In this document: positions 1,186-51,100 of the stretch, in pieces
Layout: each line of letters begins with the position of its first letter
Numbering within the stretch: position 1 is the first letter of the stretch
NCBI RefSeq assembly: GCF_022458985.1
Contig: NC_061770.1
Span: forward strand, 34,205,599 to 34,269,598
DNA length: 64,000 nucleotides
Direction: 5' to 3'
From: Mugil cephalus
Taxonomy: Eukaryota; Chordata; Actinopteri; Mugiliformes; Mugilidae
Made by a program: the position numbers and the translations under genes
Notes under the pieces: generated by a model
Told to the model about the DNA's origin: nothing
The model's input: only the letters and a program-made list of their open reading frames with translations
Databases searched by the model: none

Positions 1186-3370
1186 GATTAATAACTGATA
1201 AACACAGAGGCACTCACAACAGAAAAATTGTTTGCTTTCAGACATTTTGCACAGACTTTACATATGTGACTAAAATGGTCAAGCTCTGAAAAAATGTTAA
1301 TTACTTGAGTTAAATTAAAAATAATTAGTGGAATGGATTAGATAAGGACGCACTGAAGGGGCTCGCTCACTGTGAAGTGAAGAGAAATGGACAGATTTAT
1401 GAATACACTGAAGTGATTATACATAATTTATTTAAACTCTTGTTCTGACCATTTTATATTGACTTTGTCAGCACTCTCTTCCCAAAAAAGGCGGAAAAAA
1501 CAACGATTTTTTTTTTTTTTTACGTTTCCTGAAATGGTTGTATTGCATGTTGTCATGTTGTCTTTACTTTTCTAAATCAGGATGAAAAGCCGATTCCGCC
1601 TGATTCGTGCCTGAGGAGTCACGTGGAGTCGCTATGAGTCATCTCCTCTGCAGCGAGGTTGATGCAAAAGAGGTCGGGTCACCGCGGAACTACGCCCGAT
1701 TTTGGATATTTTTAATAGACAGGACTCATCTCTTTTGTTCTCCTCCACCAACAGACAGCAGCATCAATGTGCTCAAATCACAAAGGTTTAAAATCTGCAG
1801 CTCTGGAGCGGCTTATGTTGAGCAGTACCAGTAGCAGCTGCAGCAGCAGCACCATCTAGTGCCCGTTTCCAGAACAGCAGCAGGGCTTTCAATAACAAAC
1901 ATACACTAACTACAGTTTACAAAGGGAAAATAGTGACAACAGATGCATGCAAATATTCTGGCAACGCCATTGTAGTAATTGAGGCTCATAGATGTTGCAA
2001 TTACACAGTCCTGGTGTATGTAGAGTATATAAAAAGGGCTGAATTATGAAATAAATACTGAAATGCGTTAACTTCAGGCCTCAAAATATCTGGTCATATA
2101 AAACAATCTCCCAACAACAAAATCACTTGGACTGAACTGCTCCAGATTCACAGATTCTTTCAGAAAAAATCATGTCTTTTGCAGCATTCGGAGTCATGTT
2201 AACTTTCTTCCCGGTCTCTGTTTGTATCCATGACCTATCAATGCATGTGGTGCAATAGAAAAATCACATGTATGAGTTGACTTGAGTGTATAAAATAAGC
2301 AAAGTGAAACCATTTTTGTCCCTATTTAAAGGCATTAGACAAATCCCAACCATGATGCATAAACACGCCACCAATCTACACGTTGGTTTTAGTTCCACCC
2401 GCTGCTTCTGAAGCTCGCATCTCTGGTGCGCCTGTCATTTCTGGAGTGGAAACAGGTGTTTGCTGGAAACCAGAGCAGGCAGAGCCTTTCCAGCTGCACT
2501 GCCTCACAGCCCACGGATGACTCAGCCCCTCTTCTCCGGTCCATCTCCATCATCTGCATCCCCTATTAGCTCCCCGGACCTCTCGTTGCCTGGCTCCCAT
2601 TGTCAGCCAAACTCTCAGCCTCTGCCCTAATTTCCGGCTGCGAACCAGAGTGTTTGCCTCAGGTTATGGTGAACAGATAGAAGGGTTTCTTTTAAAAAAA
2701 AAAACATTTGACTTATGTTCAAAGATCATCAGCAAATGGATTTAATCACTGTAACCTATCACGCCTGAGGACATGTGAATAAACTGCGTTGTTGATGATC
2801 ACCAGGCCTCGTTTTCACATGTGTTTTCATGCCATTTTTGGAACCAAACCATTTCTTTTTTGTAACTCTGCCTCCATTTCATGTTGTAGCCCTTGCGTCA
2901 GGATCGTAAGACTGAGGGCGCCACTGTGAGAGTAAAAATATTACGTGATCTAGGTTTGAATCTGCGGGAAACTAGCAAATTTTACTTATATATATTTTAT
3001 ATGTAGTGACATATTGTGACGTGAACAATGCTGGAAAATAAGAATGAAGCAGGGATAGTCTGGAGTCCAGCCAAATTAAATGCGATGAATGAAATCTGGC
3101 TTAATGGAACAAAAGTATTTTGATAAAATAACATGGATGCTCAGTGCCCACAGATGGTATTTGCATATAAGAAGGATGGTCTGACTGGGATTACTGAGGC
3201 TGATCAACAATCTTTTAGCCTAACAATGCATGGGAAGTCAAACAGAGTGACGTAGAGCTGACGTGATCCAATGCAACAGTTCTGCCACAGAATCCCAATA
3301 AAGTCCAGGCATGTACTGACTAAAACACGATCAAAACTCGGTATCATGACGGTATCAAAAATATGTGAAA
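1186..3370. other. Intergenic region without recognised gene
   Basis: Short open frames here have no family features. A GC-moderate, low-repeat block at about 2370-2660 differs from the AT-rich surroundings and could be conserved non-coding DNA. The rest shows only A and T runs. Confidence 0.4.
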
Positions 3371-3377
3371 AAATAAA

Positions 3378-3378
<1 letters not shown>

Positions 3379-3446
<68 letters not shown>
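3379..3446 (+). repeat. Compound microsatellite (TCTA)n(GCCA)n
   Basis: Nine TCTA units run directly into about eight GCCA units; the second motif differs from the first at two positions. Confidence 0.95.
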
Positions 3447-3454
3447 CCTAACTT

Positions 3455-3774
3455 GATGACGTCATGTAGATGCCATCACTATTTGAGAACTAGCCACGCC
3501 CCTTACGGTCGCGGCCACGCGCGTTAGCGTCACCCACCAGCTTCAATATGTCATCTCTCCATTTAAAGATGGCAAGTAGCTTTTATGAAAGAGATTAAGA
3601 CGTATGTGTGTATTATTATTATACTTTTTAAACTGCTGATTCATAAAAAACAAAAAAATCGAAGTGAAGACAAAGGAGCAAACAACGGACAAACGGCCAT
3701 TGTTCAATCACACATCCTAGCAACCGTTACTATGTAAACAAGGTCCGTCTAGCTGCCGACCTCCGACAAGCAAA
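3455..3774 (+). mobile_element. 5' leader of the THAP-DDE element, repeated at 8341-8700
   Basis: This leader shares long matched blocks with 8341-8700, among them CTAGCCACGCCCCTTACGG, CCATTTAAAGATGGCAAGTAG (diverged in the second copy), GAAGACAAAGGAG and ACAAACGG-CATTGT. Repetition of the leader shows that the THAP-DDE gene arose within a mobile element. Confidence 0.65.
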
Positions 3775-6700
3775 ATGGTGAAGCGGTGTGCCCACGGCCT
3801 ATGTAAGTCAGACACTAGATACCCCAACAGTTTGGCCGGGGAGGTCGTGTTCTTTCCCTTCCCGAAGCCGAAGACACAATATGAGCGTTGCCTCAAGTGG
3901 ATCGAGCAGTGCGGGAGACCCCACTCCCAGCTAAACGTCCAGAAAATAAACAAGCACACATACATCTGCTCCAAGGTAAGGCTAGAATGGGCTAAAGCCA
4001 CAGCGATAGCTAGCTAGCTAGCTAACGTCGAGCTATGTGAGGCAAAATGAGCAAGACGCTGAAAAATACAAACCCGTATATCGACGTTACGGTTACTATT
4101 GGGAAATATTAGTGCTTAACTAACGGTATTTAACTTAACGTTAGCTAGCTAGTTAGCTAGTGAGTTCACGTTAGCTAGCTAACTTTAGCTGTTGCTTTAG
4201 GCTTTAGGTCTCAATGCTCTCGCTAACTTACATCAAAGTTGAACATAGCGTCTCAACAGACGGTTAAAACTCACGTTGTTTCTGTTTTTGATGTAGCATT
4301 TTGTAAATGGAAAGCCTACTCCCGAGCATCCGAACCCTGCACGTGCTGTACTAGCGCCGAACCAGCCTGGAGGCTGTCGAAAGACAAGCAAGCAACGGTA
4401 GGCCTACGTTACACGCCAGTAATATTTGATCTGAAGTATTCAACCCGTTAGCACGTGTCATTTAGCCTGACGTTAATGTTATTGCAAATAGAACAAGGTG
4501 ACGCACAATGTAACAGAAGCTAGGTATTTAATCACGTGTAAACGACGTGTACAGACGCAGCTTACGTGTGCAGGAATCCCCCACCTCCAGCACTGACGAT
4601 GCGGAAGAGACTCAACAGCTTGTTGTTGACAGAGGTGAGTGATGGGAACCTTTCAGATTAATAATAGCTTATCAGGCGGGAGTGGAATATCCTGCCCAGT
4701 CCTATTACCTCTGAGTTGTGTTGAATTATAGAATATATTGGCATGATAGCATGATGTTATTATTAGTTTATTTAATTGGGACAATCCACATTAATCAACA
4801 TTGATTCATTATCAATCAGCGTAAGTGAGCCCGACATAGAAGACTTCAAAACAACAATCATGCAGTAGACAATTACAGAACCAAATACAGGTAGACAATG
4901 TCAAAACAAACCAAAACATTAGCCTGAATCGAGTAACGTTTAACATCTTTATCATTTAAAGTGCTAAAAAACTAAAACATATAAAATCTGCTGTGCTTAA
5001 ATCCAGTGTGTTATCTCCTAGTATCAATAAAACCGATGGATTACCTTTTAAAACGATGTTACATTGATATATGTCGCCAGGAACTTGCCGACCACAGATG
5101 GATTTAAGAATATTAATCGATACATCGATGTAGTAGATGAATCGTTACACCAGTAGTTCCTTTACTGGCGCATTCATTCTCTGTTCAGAGGCCAAAACAA
5201 ACTTACAGCAGTGCCAGACACATGAGAATAAAACAAGAATCCCTGTATGTAAGAATAGAACCACTGGTATTTAACATAGTAGTCAAAGAAAAATACACCA
5301 ATCTTGCTTCATCTGTTCCCACTTTGCAACATCAAAGTGTATTCTTTCTAGACCATGACACACCTGTGAGACCAAGCTGCCCCGTGATTTGATATTGTTG
5401 GGCATGGTACACTCTGTGAAGCTCTTCTTAGAAGGGCATTTAATCTCTAAAAGCCCAACAGTCCCTCTTCCCTCCATCATCTATATCTATATCTTTGGGA
5501 ATCCTATAAAACAACTTCCACTTTGTCCCCGATCATTCTGGCATCCTGGGGCCCAACAGCCTCAGGTTGTTTAGTTAGTTGCTCCGACCGAATAGTCAGT
5601 ATAGAAGTACACTTTCCTACCAATATGGCGACTGGGATGGCAGAGCAAACTTGGGCGGGTCGTCTGGTTGGCTCGCAACAAAGTTAACCGATAAACCATT
5701 AACAGTCAAACATTATTGCTTCACAGAGAGTCCCAAGCCACCTCCACTTCCTGGATCCCAGCTGAAAACGGAGCCCGAGGAGGAGCAGAGCACTGAAAAG
5801 GAGAAGAGATTAGAAGAAGAAAAAGACAACATGAAGCTGAAATTGTCTTTAAAAGAAACTGAAATAGAAAGGCTGAAAGCACAAATTAGCACTCTCAAAA
5901 AGAGAACGCTAACACCTGAACTACTGGAAAGCAGCCAAATCCCTGACATGATGGGATACAGTACTGGGTTCACGTATGAACAATTCAACCAGCTGTGCAA
6001 AATATTCGGCTTCCCAAATGATCCACGCAACACTCAAACCAACGTGCTCCTAAACTACAAGTGCAGTGATTGGCAGGTTGCCGAGATGCCGCTCCGTAGC
6101 CAGTTGCTGTTTGTTTTAATGAAACTCCGCAACAACGAAGACCTGAAGAGTCTAGCCTTTCGGTTTAACATAAACATGCAAACAGCGAGTGACATTTTCA
6201 ACTCCTGTATCCGTTATATGTTTGACGTATTGGGTGAATTACCGATTTGGCCTCACCGAGACGTCATTGCGCAGAACATGCCGAAAACCCACAAAGCAGA
6301 CCACCCGTCCACATTCGCGATATTCGTCTGCACGGAGCTGAAAGCGGAAAGGCCAACGTCACTGGACCAAAGCACAAACTCCCTAAAATCTCTAGTTGTC
6401 TGCGACCCCCGTGGCGCTGTGCTTTTTTCATCCGCCCTCTTCGCAGGGTCCACGTCCGACGAGGAGGTAGTCCGACAGTGCGGCATCCTCCCGCTGCTGG
6501 AGAAGCTCATAGAAACCGGCTACCTGCAGAGAGGCGATGGCGTGATGGCCGGTGAAGGCTTTTCCGTAGAGGAAGAGATGCGGGAACTCGGGCTGCGGTT
6601 GAACCCGGCGCCGTTTTCGAGGTCCGAGACGCGAACGACGGCTGGAGATGAGCCGGTGAAGCACGGGGTCCACGTACAGAGGGCCATCGCTAAAATAAAA

Positions 6701-6811
6701 CAGTTCAAGATAGTGTCAGACAGCATTCCTGATACAAGGTTAGAGATCATCAATCACATCTGGTATGTGGTGAGTATGCTTTCCAACTTCCAGCCGCACA
6801 TACTGGAGTAA
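3775..6811 (+). CDS. THAP zinc-finger / DDE_Tnp_4 transposase-derived protein with lost catalytic triad
   Basis: Four exons join in frame: 3775-3975, 4297-4397, 4574-4634, 5729-6811 (482 codons, 481 aa). Residues 1-86 form a THAP DNA-binding domain with C5, C10, W42, C65 and H68 (the CSKHF motif spans the first splice junction). About 138-176 is a charged coiled coil, and about 200-481 matches the DDE_Tnp_4 (PIF/Harbinger-like, ISL2EU-type) nuclease fold, ending in the family-typical LSNFQP. The three positions where this family carries D, D and E read V321 (FVCTE), G396 (MAGEGF) and Q438 (HVQRAI). The segment after AERP is also shorter than usual. The frame is otherwise open for over 1 kb with intact splice sites, and AATAAA lies at 6962. 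It is either a decaying transposon copy or a domesticated DNA-binding protein; nuclease activity is not expected. Family comparison is from memory. Confidence 0.8.
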
Positions 6812-6961
6812 GGGACAGTGGTAGCATCATGTGGAAGGTGCTGTAGAGATACAGATTTCTGGATACTATGTGGCTCAGTCCCTGTTTCATCTTTAATGTG
6901 TAGGCCTGTTTTTTTATATTGTAAGGACCATTTAGAGTTCGTAAATGTCTATTTTTGTTTA

Positions 6962-6967
6962 AATAAA
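6962..6967 (+). terminator. Candidate polyadenylation signal of the THAP-DDE gene
   Basis: An AATAAA hexamer lies about 150 bases after the TAA stop of the THAP-DDE reading frame, a usual distance for a 3' end. No other hexamer lies between the stop and this one. Confidence 0.45.
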
Positions 6968-7067
6968 CCCATGGGGAAAAGTCTTATCTCCAATGGCAGG
7001 TAGTGCTGCTTTATTCTGACTGGCTTGTTTGAATTTTCAATAGACCCCTACACAGTTTGTAAATAAT

Positions 7068-7430
7068 GTGACGTTTTTTGAGGGGCGGGGCTTAACCGGA
7101 TGCAACACATCTCAAACACTATAGCTTGTAAACGCCAGTTAGCATATTTCAATGGACTGTTTTGGCAAGAATGGACAAGGAAAATGAATATTTTAGAGAA
7201 TATACCAATAAACTCACTCTCCAAGGCCATGAGTGTTTTCACTGACCCCTACACTCTCACTCACTGGATGGACAATTTCACCAAAAAAGGACACCAAGGA
7301 CGCCATGAAGGAGTCTATAGTATAGTGGCTTGGACCACACCCACCACTGTGTACTTCTTACGTCCTACCTGTGCATCCAACACTCCTGTCCTCAACTCTG
7401 TCCTGTACCACATACATTCAAAGGTGAGTG
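7068..7430 (+). other. Unassigned open frame downstream of the THAP-DDE gene
   Basis: An open frame from about 7100 ends near a donor-like AAAG|GTGAGTGT at 7422. It could be a remnant of a second transposon-encoded protein, but the translation matches nothing I recognise, so no gene is claimed. Near 7080 is a GAGGGGCGGGGCTTA tract resembling, in reverse, the element leader's GCCACGCCCC. Confidence 0.2.
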
Positions 7431-7864
7431 TCACTGTCTATCGTGTTACACAATAGACATGACTATATTCAGAACCATGTGACTGTGGAGTAGTTGCTAG
7501 TTGCTGCTACTGCAACATTAGACATACAACCTTACATCCATGGACCTGTGTAACAGGCTACACTCTGATGTAGCAGTACTTACAGACACAGGGGTAAAGG
7601 ACTTTTCAGATTGAAACAGGAAGCGGTCAACGCACAGAAGTAAAACGAGCTGTCAAAATAAAAGAGGAACCGATAGGGAAAGAGACGCAAAAAAATTATA
7701 ACTAGAACATGTTCAAAACTCCATGTTATGTGAAAATCTATATATTAGTTATTCTGCGCTTTCATCTGGATGATTGTTTGGTCCAAAACATCTACACTGG
7801 GATAAAAAAAATCACAAATGAAGACTAACGATCAAATATGACTTAGTTTGAATGTCAATGGACA

Positions 7865-7903
7865 TCTATCTATCTATCTATCTATCCGTCCATCCATCCA
7901 TCC
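7865..7903 (+). repeat. Microsatellite (CTAT)n(CATC)n
   Basis: About six CTAT units followed by CATC units. It directly precedes the CTAG-rich minisatellite. Confidence 0.9.
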
Positions 7904-7929
7904 CCAGGGACCTATCCTACATTCGATCC

Positions 7930-8250
7930 TTCATCTTAATCCTAGCCCTATTATCCTGTCCTTGATTATGTCCTATCCCTAACCCTAGCCTTATCCTCCT
8001 ATCCAATTTGAGGCCTAGCCTAAGAATAATATCCGATTTGATCTCTAGTCCTAGAATCCTGGATTTGATCCCTAGTCCTAGAATCCTGAATGTGATCCCT
8101 AGTCCTAGAATCCTGAATGTGATCCTTAGCCTTAGATTCCAATACTGGATTTGATCCCTAGTCCTAGAATCCTGAATGTGATCCCTAGTCCTAGAATCCT
8201 GAATGTGATCCTTAGCCTTAGATTCCAATACTGGATTTGATCCCTAGCCT
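7930..8250 (+). repeat. CTAG-rich minisatellite with an 86-bp higher-order unit
   Basis: The core unit is 27 bp (TGATCCCTAGTCCTAGAATC plus CTGAATG), with a 32-bp variant. The arrangement 27+27+32 = 86 bp occurs twice in a row (8066-8151 and 8152-8237) without a difference that I can see. More diverged units precede it from about 7930. A minus-strand open frame across it is only a by-product of the 27-bp period. Confidence 0.92.
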
Positions 8251-8340
8251 CTGATCCCGGTTAAGGATCAATAAGAAGGTACTTGGGAAATGGATCCTGG
8301 ATGGATCATTAAAGTCTGTCTAGAACCGGGTCCTATCTAA

Positions 8341-8700
8341 AAACTTTTTGATGACGCCATTATGGCGTCATCAGTATTTGACTACTAGCCACGCCCCTTA
8401 CGGCCATGCCTATGCAGTTGGCGTAACCCAGCTGGATGTCATCTCCCCGTTTAAAGATAGCAAGTGGCTTTTATAAAAGACATCAATATGTTTGTGGATG
8501 TTATTATTATTACACTCTTTAATTCGCCGATTAATAAATATAATTCAAAGAGAAGACAAAGGAGCCAAACAACACAAACGGTCATTGTCCGATCATACAT
8601 CTACCTTTCCCTTCCCGAAGCCGGAAACATAACGCGAGTGGTCCACGAGATTAAAACGTATGTGCATATTATTATATTTTTAATTGCTTAATTAATCTGT
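8341..8700 (+). mobile_element. Deleted second copy of the THAP element's 5' part
   Basis: Matches 3455-3760, then jumps to a piece of exon 1 (TTTCCCTTCCCGAAGCCG, corresponding to 3853-3872), skipping the start codon region. After this it repeats its own ACGTATGTG-ATTATTAT segment. It begins with a perfect 11-bp palindrome arm pair at 8350-8372. No coding capacity remains. Confidence 0.65.
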
Positions 8701-8764
8701 CGAGTCAGTAGTTATAGTAAATGTTTTTTTTCCCCTACTATTTAGGAGGTTGCTTTTATTCTGA

Positions 8765-8900
8765 AACTGTACCCGGAAGTGTGAAGTGTTGCCACTGGTG
8801 GCGGAACAAACAAGGACTTTGAGATTAGCTGCCTGTCAGACACCGTGGAGGAGACTCACCGTCCCGCTTTCTGCTGGATCCCCTCCGCTGCACACCACGA
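8765..8900 (+). promoter_or_regulatory. Probable aco1 promoter and 5' non-coding exon
   Basis: A locally GC-richer stretch ends in a good donor (CACGA|GTGAGTAC at 8900/8901). A 3' splice site (TTCTTCTAG|TACTTTG at 11635/11636) lies 26 bases before the aco1 ATG, so an upstream non-coding exon must exist, and this is the best candidate. The exon's 5' limit cannot be set from sequence, and no TATA box is apparent. The link to aco1 is inference from position and splice signals. Confidence 0.4.
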
Positions 8901-9059
8901 GTGAGTACATCACCTCCGAAGACATTTGGTCAAACGTCCCGTTAAACCGTGTCCTCGACCTGCGCGTTAGTGTTTTTTTTTTTTTTTTACTGAGCCGGAC
9001 GTCCTGCGCTTTGTGTACATGTTTGACGAGGAAGCTAATGCTAACAACGTAGGCCAAGT

Positions 9060-10556
9060 GGCAGGGCTGGGAAATATGAATGAAGAGGAGGATGAGGTTG
9101 GTTAGAAGACTCGGGAATAAAATACCACATTAAAATGTATATGTTAAGATTAGAATATGAGCAGAATTAAAGAAGAGAAAATAATATTTAGTAAGATTAG
9201 AAAACTGCTTGGTCACAGTAGCTTATTGCTCTTAAAAACACAAGCAAAAAAGATAAAGTACGAATAAAATACAAGTATTAACTAGTAAAATAAAATAGAA
9301 AATGGTTCAAGCAACATATGCAAAGAAGTATCATTCTGAACAAATTTACAAAAATCGATCAAATGTTCTCCAGTTTAAAATAAGCTGTAAGACGTTGTTT
9401 ATTTATGCCACATATGGGAAACGTCCTGGTCACAGTAGTTGATAAGAAGATAAACCAAAAAACATGAGCATTCACAACATGAATTTATTGCAAAAAATAA
9501 AGAAAATTAAAAGTATAAATACATGCTGTGTGTATAGAGCGGTGGTAATTAAAACTGCTGAAGTTGGTGATTAATTGCAAGACAATAAAAAAAAATCTGC
9601 AAAAAAGCAGATTAGAAAAGTTTAGATATTAAACTGGGAGAAGTTACTTAAGCAAACTACAAAAGTTAACATTCAGATTCAACTTGTTGTAGATCTGACA
9701 CTCAGTCCCACAGAGGTAATTATAACCTGAGACAGTATTGTCAGTGGCAGGTTCCCCTTCAGCCCTAATGTCAGGGTCGCGTTTTGGACTTTTGCACCTG
9801 GTTGGTGCGGTTGGAGGCGTTGCACCGTGTCGTTGCGGCTCAGCGGGCAGCTATGTGGCCGTTCAGGATGTGCAGGCCCGGTCGAGCTGCTCTGTCACCT
9901 TTCACACGGATAACGCTGCTCTCAAGGAAATCACATGCAGGCCGGGACAGATCGCCTGAGCTCGCCCTGTGAGTCTCAGGGGCCTGTGGTTCGTTTAGCT
10001 TCAGATTTCGTCAGATTGCTCGGGGACGTTGAGTTGTGTAAGGTTTGTAAGGCACGGGTTAAAAGTTCACTGACCCACCCCCCCTCCAGCATGCACGCAC
10101 TGCAATTCAAGTTAATCCATTTGTACACTGTGAAAAGGCTGTGGACCAGTTATTAACCCTCTTAGCACCAGAGTCTCATTTAGTCTTAGTCTTCAGAAGA
10201 AAAAGCTTATTAGTCATTTTTGTCTTTCATAGTTTTAATCGACAGAAAGTCTTATCAAACTATTTATTTCAGTATCTGGACATTGCCGTGCAAAAACAAG
10301 ACGTTGCAGCTTGTTATTTATGAGGTTTTGTTAAATTTCCGTGTCGTATTAAACCAGAGAAGTTAATAAGCGTTCGTAATCAGCCATAAAATTTGACCAC
10401 GTTTTGTACTTTGTTCTCTTTTGTCCCGTGACCAGCTGTAGAACGAGTCCACTGAAATACCCGCTATCGTGTTTTTACACAGATTGTGGCGACAGATAGA
10501 GAGTGGAGGGGAGGGGGGTGAAGAAAGACCAGGGAGACTCAGGAGGAGACACATGT
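9060..10556. other. aco1 first intron, no feature recognised
   Basis: AT-rich DNA with one GC-richer patch at about 9730-10000 that has no family match. Apparent open frames there are not supported. Confidence 0.4.
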
Positions 10557-48100: not shown

Positions 48101-51100
48101 ACAGGAGCCCTCTGATCCTGGTTTAACCTGCACTGACCTGTGGTGGATTTGAGTTTCATCTCTTTGGATAAAACAGCCATTTTTGTGGGAAAAACACATC
48201 ACTACATTTTTTTTTTTGTTACCTCTTCCTGAGTCCCTGATGGTGAGTTGAGCCTTGCTAATGCTGCCAATTACAGCGCCTACAGGTGACACCAGCAGCA
48301 CTTCAAACGTCTCCTCAGCCTCCTCGAGGTGATCTTGGACGATCTCAGTTTGCCAGCTCCGCTTTGACACTCCTAGAATCAATCAAGGACCAACACAGTG
48401 ATGTCAGACAACTTCTGGTTTGGGGCGAAGCAGAGTATCACTTCAGTTTGAGTCTAAAACTGTATATGCGGGAAACATAAGACAGCGCTCAACGAAACTC
48501 TAAGGTAAGATTGAGACTATAATGTTTCACAAGTCATATTTAACTTCATCTTCATTCTAATTGTTGGCGATCATTGTCGTTATGTGGCTGCTTTGGTGTG
48601 GGAACGTAACGCTAAGCTAGGCATGCTAAGCTGCAGGCTAACAAGCAGCAGCTTAACCAATAGACTGAATATGAAAGGCTGGAGTGGGGGACAGTTTTTG
48701 TGCAGTCTGTGCATGTTTCCCAAAAGGAATTTTGGGAGTAGCTGGGGGAGGCACTGTGTGAATTCCATTTCAAATTTGAGAACACCGCTCACTGAGATAG
48801 CGGAAGTCGGGACACCTCGGCCCAAACTGGAAGTCATCTGATGTCACATGAAAAGGGTCTATTAAATATATTGAGATCTCTCTTTGTTATGAGATAACAA
48901 GATAAATAACTAGAGATGGCGAGGAAATGGAAAAAAAAATAATAATATGTGAATGCATGGCCGCTTAGGGCTTTGTGTACTATCAAATTGCTTTTTTTGT
49001 ATTAGGGAAATTGCATGGCCTAAAAAAAATTATCAAGGCTATCTTCTTAGACTCTAATGCTGCTAAAGCACAAGTCATTCATATTCCTTAAGAGATTGTA
49101 CAATGGCTATTATATTTTATTATTTGTAACTTTTACACTAAATACGCTGCAGTAGCACAAATCCCAACTGATTCACTTCCATGAAGAATGCAGTATCATG
49201 CCAGCTCTCCTCTAATAATAAAAACCTACCTGGATCAAACTGAATGAGTGACGAAGGGTTTAGGATGAAATCTTTTCCCGCGGCTGCCGTCGCCTCCTTT
49301 ACCTGCACAGAAACATGTCACAGGGCACACGTTGAGAAACCGAACTCCTCAGATGTCCACAGTCTGAGTCACAGCTCATCAGTTTCAGCAACAAAAACAC
49401 TTGCTGACCTTTAAGGTGATATACGACGACTCTGCCAAGTTCCCCTTTCGGATGACGTCCAGCCCGATAGCTCCCTGCTCCTCGCACGCAGAGTACTCGG
49501 GCTGAGACAACTCCACACTGGACCACCTGAACTCAAGCCTGCAAAGACAAGCAGGTCAAGCCTGGGGGAAGCCACAAAATAAAAACAGTGTATTATTCCT
49601 TTTTTCCTCACATGTGAGAGGGCCCTGTGTTGCCCAGAGGATCAGACACTCTGAACTCCAGGCTGTCTGAGAGAGTCTCCTTGTCCGGATTGATGACATA
49701 GACGATGGTTCTTTTGTTCAGCTCTACCTGAGGGAAGCGCTGAGGCGCAAATCTACCTGCAAAGACCAACGTTTTTTTTGTTTTTTTTTTGACGTAAAAC
49801 TGCAGCAAAGACTTTAACAAAACTCTTCACCCCACCTGTAGTGATGTTCTCCAGGTACCCAAAGTAAGGTGGACGAACGATGCAGAATATCAGTTCTTCG
49901 TCCCTACTGTCGCCGTCCCGGGCCTTCAGCTCACGAGAAGACAGAAAAATACCAAACCGGCCGTCGGCTAAAAGCTCTGCCTTCCAGAGTGGGAGCAGCT
50001 TCACGACCTCCGGAGGCGACTTATCCAAAGGCTTGATCTGAAATTGAAGACAGGCTTGGTTACCACGAGCATTATGTTAAAGAAAGTGGTTTCTCATGTG
50101 GCCTGGTACACGGACAGTTAAAAAGCTTCTACGAGGAAACATCTGAGGCTAGAAAAGAGAAATATCCACAGTTACATCCCTTCTTTTTTTCCCCACATAT
50201 TTTCTGTTTAAGATTTGCAGGACAAAATCAATTAAAACAAACATACACACACACACACACACAAAAAAAAACAAAAAAGACAAAAAAGTCAGTTACAAGG
50301 GCTAGTGGTGCAATGGATAACGCGTCGGACTACGGATCAGAAGATTCCAGGTTTGACTCCTGGCTAGCTCGCTAGAGCTTTTCTATGAAAAATAGTCGTG
50401 TGGCAAAAGCAACAAGTATTGCTCACGGTCTGACTGCACCAAAATAAATAAATACACTAATTCCTTGATTTTTTCAATTTTTTTTAAAAAAAAGAAGGCA
50501 GAGAAGAGAAATTTATTTTTTTTGAGGGATTTATAGCTTTTTATAGTTTTCTTACACTGCATGGAGACATAATTGAGTTACATCAGCCTATAGCCCTGCG
50601 TGCCCTGAAACCATAGAGGTGCAGGACTTCACTTTGCAGAGAAAAATGGGACAACACTGAAGACTTCCACAGTGTTACACTAAAAAAAAAAGACAAAAAA
50701 ATAAGTTATTTACAAGGGCTAGTGGCGCAATGGATAACGCGTCTGACTACGGATCAGAAGATTCTAGGTTCGACTCCTGGCTAGCTCGCTTTAACTGTAA
50801 TTTCTCCATAAAATGTACAAAATATTTGTCAGTTAAAGATCGCAAGTTGTTGTCTTGGATTAGCAATGGCCGATCTTCTTTGAGGTAAGATCTTTTTATC
50901 TCAAGTTTAAAAAAACAAAAACGAAAACCATCTGATAGTAGCAAAACAACCATCTTTATATCTCTGGATAACAACATTTAAAAAGCAGGAACCTCTGCTC
51001 TCTCTGGTATAATTTAGCAAAAGTCACTTAAATTCCCCTACTCCACTGTGTATTAATAATGGAAATTAAAAGGTTACTATTTGATAATTGCTTAATCTTG

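Follow-up and report, generated by a model that had tools for sequence, protein, structure and literature searches.

A THAP/HTH/DDE_Tnp_4 transposase gene lacking all three catalytic acids in Mugil cephalus, a candidate domesticated DNA-binding protein

A transposase gene that is open over its full length and lacks its catalytic acids raises the question of whether the host has kept it or whether it is a dead copy that has yet to decay. Such a gene lies in a 64,000-nucleotide stretch of the Mugil cephalus genome (contig NC_061770.1, positions 34,205,599 to 34,269,598; hereafter the window). It is a probable four-exon gene on the plus strand, at positions 3775-6811 of the window, and its protein combines THAP, HTH_Tnp_4 and DDE_Tnp_4 domains. 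Frames with what we take to be aconitase motifs run on the same strand at 13.3-19.5 kb, which makes a location beside aco1 plausible. The parts of the gene in the preferred splice model are as follows.

3775-3975, plus strand: exon 1, THAP zinc finger (C5, C10, C65); donor AAG/gtaagg; holds a 6-nt in-frame stretch
4297-4397, plus strand: exon 2, end of the THAP domain (H68, HFVNGKPTPEHPNP); three other copies share its start only
4561-4634, plus strand: exon 3, predicted acidic linker ESPTSSTDDAEETQQLVVDR, placed by splice-site enumeration; earlier start 4574
5727-6811, plus strand: exon 4, with a probable coiled coil (by eye), HTH_Tnp_4, DDE_Tnp_4 and the stop; no other genomic DNA copy found
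6086-6232, plus strand: HTH_Tnp_4 domain (Pfam, residues 241-289 of the 481-residue model)
6329-6787, plus strand: DDE_Tnp_4 domain (Pfam, residues 322-474 of the 481-residue model)

The initial annotation described a frame running open through four exons, with a THAP finger and a coiled coil. Translation and Pfam bear this out, the coiled coil being recognised by eye only. The frame at 5729-6811 is open, and the stop-to-stop interval around it (5579-6811, 410 codons) is the longest open frame in the window. With the splice sites first proposed, an open protein of 481 residues is obtained, in which THAP (residues 5-76, 36.4 bits), HTH_Tnp_4 (38.8 bits) and DDE_Tnp_4 (69.6 bits) all score over the Pfam cut-off. 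Residues C5, C10, C65 and H68 match the C2CH set by what we take to be its spacing rule. Structural modeling was uninformative: AlphaFold2, run without an alignment on 5879-6808, returned an unusable model (mean pLDDT 34.1, pTM 0.23), and the single match among solved structures (E = 0.32) is not meaningful.

The splice sites required some revision. The proposed acceptors at 4574 and 5729 do give an open protein, but exon 3 is better started at 4561 and exon 4 at 5727, in each case the upstream of the two acceptors compared. These choices yield 486 residues and turn the linker into the acidic sequence ESPTSSTDDAEETQQLVVDR; on this ground we infer that the corrected model is the better one. The two acceptors of exon 4 overlap (cttcacag), 5727 being the upstream and 5729 the second, and a start of exon 3 at 4555 is likewise open. 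It could be argued that the frame is intact in appearance only, and that the true splicing of exons 2-4 breaks the message so that no full-length protein is made. Enumeration of AG/GT sites produced 163 open combinations among those tried, so an open linker is cheap and weak evidence, and the initial model works only if splicing passes over the first of the overlapping acceptors and takes the second. Against this, the upstream-acceptor model is open with a plausible linker, the donors AAG/gtaagg and GAG/gtgagt agree with the usual consensus, and exon 4 by itself comprises 360 open codons. We consider a broken message unlikely.

The catalytic columns were read directly from the codons and compared with relatives in the same genome.

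6326-6328, plus strand: GTC, coding Val where all 8 aligned relatives have Asp (first catalytic column)
6551-6553, plus strand: GGT, coding Gly where 5 of the 8 aligned relatives have Asp (second catalytic column)
6677-6679, plus strand: CAG, coding Gln where Glu stands in 5 of the 6 relatives covered (third catalytic column)

These residues are V321, G396 and Q438 in the 481-residue model and V326, G401 and Q443 in the 486-residue model, and both the codons and the alignment uphold the earlier reading of V, G and Q at the three DDE positions. When exon 4 was searched as protein against the genome (635 Mb in 24 contigs, the window lying on contig C1), nine relatives were recovered at 29-33% identity, with all 18 candidates scored. 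Eight of them make up the alignment; L053, which has a TGA within its frame, was omitted. The triad is complete (D,D,E) in L051 and L052, and reads D,D,R in L050, D,E,E in L054, D,N,E in L055 and D,S,E in L056; L057 and L058 have D,D with the third column not covered, and L053, outside the alignment, has D,E,E. The non-consensus residues of the aligned relatives are thus N, E and S in the second column and R in the third. Among the genes readable at all three columns, the window gene alone has lost all three acids. Long frames with damaged triads are not rare in this genome.

The DDE core of the window gene is also altered in length, always in frame: relative to the other genes, up to 9 residues are missing after RPTSLD, following the first catalytic strand, and 9 are added before GDGVMAGEGF, ahead of the second catalytic strand. 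Together with a 6-nt difference in exon 1, every coding length change seen in the gene keeps the frame, which counts in favor of retention. A THAP match lies upstream within 6 kb and in the same orientation in 8 of the 9 relatives (L058 has none), indicating that the THAP and DDE architecture is a family trait. No relative of exon 4 was found in viral contigs, prokaryote genomes or phages, nor by a motif scan of the viral contigs.

Several of the relatives merit mention in their own right. L051, L052 and L055 are close THAP/DDE_Tnp_4 copies with the DDE exon open over about 250 codons. L050, L054 and L056 are long open THAP/DDE_Tnp_4 frames of 350, 492 and 477 residues, each damaged at one catalytic column, and are candidates for retained host genes. 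They resemble the window gene in frame length, upstream THAP match and damaged triad, but depart at one catalytic column each. Their identity to the window protein is 28, 26 and 24% across the whole alignment and 30-31% within the stretch that matches. With such single-loss frames, the order in which the catalytic residues went could be tested by comparing species.

How many copies of the gene exist depends on which part is considered. Exon 4 searched as DNA returned one candidate, itself, in a search that skips very common words. In contrast, region 3453-3975 gave 44 further matches with 40 of 174 candidates scored, which assigns the first part of the gene to a dispersed repeat family. One match is in the window, from 8348 on; the other 43 represent 38 places when neighboring pieces are merged by our own count, again with 40 of 174 candidates scored. 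'Single copy' is therefore true of exon 4 only, and the THAP exon is repetitive. The sequence around the family boundary divides as follows.

3453-3689, plus strand: sequence ahead of the family-shared part; a second copy seen in the window from 8348 on (40 of 174 candidates scored)
3690-3774, plus strand: start of the family-shared part and 5' UTR; 22 of the 43 outside matches begin at 3690
8348-8680, plus strand: decayed duplicate, a copy of 3453-3716 followed by an exon 1 scrap at 8605-8632 that includes the 6-nt stretch

All 43 outside matches fall within 3686-3975, and 27 of them start within 3686-3691. Immediately ahead of the 3690 point, several of the fetched copies have in common a GC-rich stretch that the window lacks, so 3690 marks a point of divergence and not necessarily the true end of the element.

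The dispersed copies are in poor condition. Twelve copies of exon 1 were fetched (L059-L070): all 12 contain stops, a length change breaks the frame in 11, and the ATG is altered in 4. Their deviation from the column majority is 7-16%, compared with 12% for the window copy, which has no stop, no frame-breaking length change and an unchanged ATG. Six in-frame bases of the window exon are missing in all 12 and present in the scrap at 8605-8632. Five copies were extended into intron 1, and the window can be aligned there with four; in the three of the four that run as far as exon 2, similarity fades shortly past the beginning of that exon. L071, the only copy read about 1.5 kb further, shows no DDE exon. 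These copies look like short deletion derivatives. L069, a member of the THAP-exon family, carries its 5' part twice in tandem (positions 1-396). Many near-identical copies with an intact DDE, which the initial annotation had named as one of the observations that would tell against domestication, did not turn up: exon 4 stands alone as DNA and its protein relatives are distant.

A short-lived function within the element could also account for this pattern. The gene could encode a catalytically dead, transposon-encoded repressor that prevents movement by occupying the ends of the element; selection against an active relative would have preserved it temporarily, and the dispersed short copies would be its former binding targets. 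The intact DNA-binding part and lost catalytic part would fit, as would the survival of the element's first part at 38 outside places (40 of 174 candidates scored), the early loss of similarity in exon 2 of three copies and the missing DDE exon of L071. No active relative is visible, though, and the nearest DDE relatives are at most 33% identical; we regard a repressor as improbable.

The more serious alternative is a fairly young dead copy that lost its acids by chance, has not yet acquired a stop or frameshift, and has no host function. We hold this to be possible, if less than probable, and its weight depends on the age of the window copy. The piece at 8348, which runs into the family part and then into the scrap of exon 1, differs from the 3453-3716 region at 55 of 251 sites (K2P 0.262) and by 5 indels. 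It is most simply explained by a local duplication that followed the insertion, although this dating is not secure. If it is correct, half of the K2P, or 0.131 per lineage, would be a lower bound on the age of the window copy. At d = 0.131, a neutral frame of 486 codons would have no stop with P = 0.0024, and neither stop nor frameshift with P = 1.1e-6 at 0.05 indels per substitution or 2.2e-9 at 0.09, the rate seen in the duplicate itself. At 5% divergence the corresponding chance is 4.4e-3 to 4.0e-4, which is not negligible, so the argument from frame survival rests on the date.

Intron 1 gives a compatible distance. The window differs from four usable copies by 0.227-0.255, and these four differ from one another by 0.187-0.255; the intron of L060, at about 0.5 from the others, was treated as unrelated sequence and left out. 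The duplicate and the intron both indicate about 0.13 substitutions per site, which speaks against a young copy, as does the failure to find a sibling with the DDE exon at the DNA level. Part of the intron divergence may nevertheless be older than the insertion. Region 3453-3689 could be the own end of a rare subfamily rather than flank, in which case the 8348 piece would be a separate insertion; the date weakens on that reading, or if the region has unscored copies. With only 40 of 174 candidates scored, and with family copies that differ upstream of 3690, the dating by the duplicate is less firm than the distance alone would imply.

Two further observations may be read in favor of youth. The 81-bp 5' UTR differs from the family majority at 4 sites, 1 of them private, which suggests either a younger copy or a conserved leader. 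CpG is not depleted: observed/expected values are 1.03 for the DDE part, 1.13 for intron 1 and 1.20 for the duplicate, as against 0.11 in 6812-7050; among the relatives it is 0.24-0.33 in 6 of 9 and 0.58-0.88 in the other 3. This fits either youth or a hypomethylated site. The duplicate has decayed and is still rich in CpG, so hypomethylation of the site may explain these values better than youth.

The initial annotation had reasoned that random decay should show stops before the loss of exactly these three residues. This was examined by simulating neutral decay of the present sequence and multiplying the chance that the frame stays open by the chance that all three named codons suffer a missense change. 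For d of at least 0.05 the joint chance is 7.6e-6 or less at 0.05 indels per substitution, and lower with 0.1 indels, in line with that reasoning and contrary to a dead copy. Larger values occur at d = 0.01 (8.4e-5) and d = 0.03 (9.3e-6), each resting on one simulated hit in 4000. The codons were named for their catalytic role, and are thus not sites chosen after the fact. The gene itself was picked for being intact, which favors the dead-copy explanation, as does the finding that an open frame taken alone has a fair chance of surviving 3-5% divergence (probability 4e-4 to 3.8e-2).

Direct measures of constraint are mixed. Relative to the majority, the window exon 1 has 14 synonymous differences over 40.0 sites and 9 nonsynonymous over 152.0 (ratio 0.17), while the 12 copies pooled have 83 over 452 and 184 over 1708 (ratio 0.59). 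The difference is significant when all exon 1 changes are counted (Fisher P = 0.0054) and falls to P = 0.079 for private changes (6 synonymous and 6 nonsynonymous in the window, 35 and 112 in the others). The majority reference was drawn from decayed copies, one of which, L063, has a ratio of 0.20, nearly as low as that of the window. We take the exon 1 test as suggestive, not decisive; part of the window divergence may predate insertion and reflect selection on the element itself. Of 53 residues conserved in the family, 33 are retained in the window gene, which counts against retention by the host: the more divergent relatives retain similar shares (from 24 of 45 up to 36 of 53), and the tight group of L051, L052 and L055 retains more, 82-86%.

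On balance, we favor the reading of a transposase-derived host gene beside aco1 that has lost catalysis and is kept by selection, and give it about an even chance; it is not proven. The earlier suggestion of a domesticated DNA-binding protein is strengthened by the open DDE exon, for which no other DNA copy was found, by the decay of all 12 fetched THAP-exon copies and by the low chance probabilities, and is tempered by the repetitive exon 1, the insecure dating, the young-looking 5' UTR and the P of 0.079. Under domestication, a Harbinger-like (ISL2EU-type) gene for a THAP/HTH/DDE_Tnp_4 transposase would have inserted upstream of aco1; the element would then have lost its mobility, and the gene would have been retained by the host with a product unable to cut DNA. 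Purifying selection would have acted on it after insertion, and the gene would be spliced and expressed. The THAP zinc finger and the HTH would bind DNA, the probable coiled coil would pair subunits and the remodeled RNase-H-like core would serve as a scaffold, so that the whole protein could act as a sequence-specific DNA-binding regulator. That this regulator acts on the short copies its own ancestor left dispersed in the genome (up to 174 candidate places with the element's first part and THAP exon, 40 scored) is a speculative extension, which we judge very doubtful. If true, a single domesticated THAP/HTH protein encoded next to aco1 could govern a network whose sites had been spread by transposition.

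Known systems provide useful comparisons. ISL2EU elements, of the PHIS or Harbinger-like superfamily, encode a transposase with THAP, HTH and DDE domains, and are marked by a second ORF with a YqaJ exonuclease, TIRs that start with GG and an AT target-site duplication (PMC4482050); they are present in several teleosts (PMC9179366). The window protein resembles the ISL2EU transposase in carrying all three domains over the Pfam cut-off, but lacks its intact DDE triad, having V, G and Q instead. None of 12 inverted-repeat pairs in 2900-9100 flanks the gene, a search that weak or gapped repeats could escape, and no YqaJ partner was recognised beside it, where the adjacent ORF was checked. For want of TIRs and a YqaJ partner, we file the protein as ISL2EU-derived and not the locus as a member.

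The domesticated Kolobok genes of Xenopus are the closest parallel in terms of what was lost and kept: 19 of 24 clustered genes have lost the DDE residues and all 24 retain the THAP C2CH (PMC6004289). Like the window gene, these non-repetitive genes often combine a lost DDE with a C2CH THAP finger, and homologous loci and dN/dS are reported for them (PMC6004289). By the domain content of the window gene, they belong to a different superfamily. The HTH_Tnp_4 and DDE_Tnp_4 matches point to Harbinger-like elements rather than Kolobok, which is characterised by THAP, DDE and H2CH motifs and a TTAA site. The insect PIF/Harbinger host genes, in the report that also gives the usual criteria for transposase domestication, have no TIRs or near copies, and their orthologues and dN/dS are known (PMC9710019). 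The window gene shares with them a related DDE transposase origin and resembles them in that no TIRs, and for exon 4 as DNA no near copies, were found; THAP does not appear in the text of that report, and some of the insect genes have a co-domesticated MADF partner (PMC9710019). THAP factors derived from transposable elements are known across animals (PMC10027918). No such fish gene is reported in the titles and abstract openings covered, which leave out most subscription journals. Loss of catalysis with retention of DNA binding is a recurrent path from transposase to regulator, and, should orthologues confirm selection, the window gene would add an example in fish that descends from THAP/DDE_Tnp_4 (ISL2EU-type) transposases.

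The surroundings of the gene contain other features. Just downstream, a dispersed repeat of very high abundance occupies 7040-7294 (2271 first-look candidates, of which 40 were scored); its longer matches among those 40 are 77-91% identical, and its ends are fairly sharp. Among the 40 of 2271 candidates scored, no match extended into 6812-7024. ORF 7082-7453 was considered as the beginning of the element's own YqaJ gene, a reading that was not upheld, since the ORF has no Pfam match and lies mostly within the abundant repeat. Between the THAP gene and aco1, a tandem array with 27- and 86-base units occupies 8000-8250. Farther along, two tRNA genes (50299-50371 and 50716-50788) sit amid long minus-strand frames, which we presume, by resemblance, to belong to a large extracellular-matrix gene.
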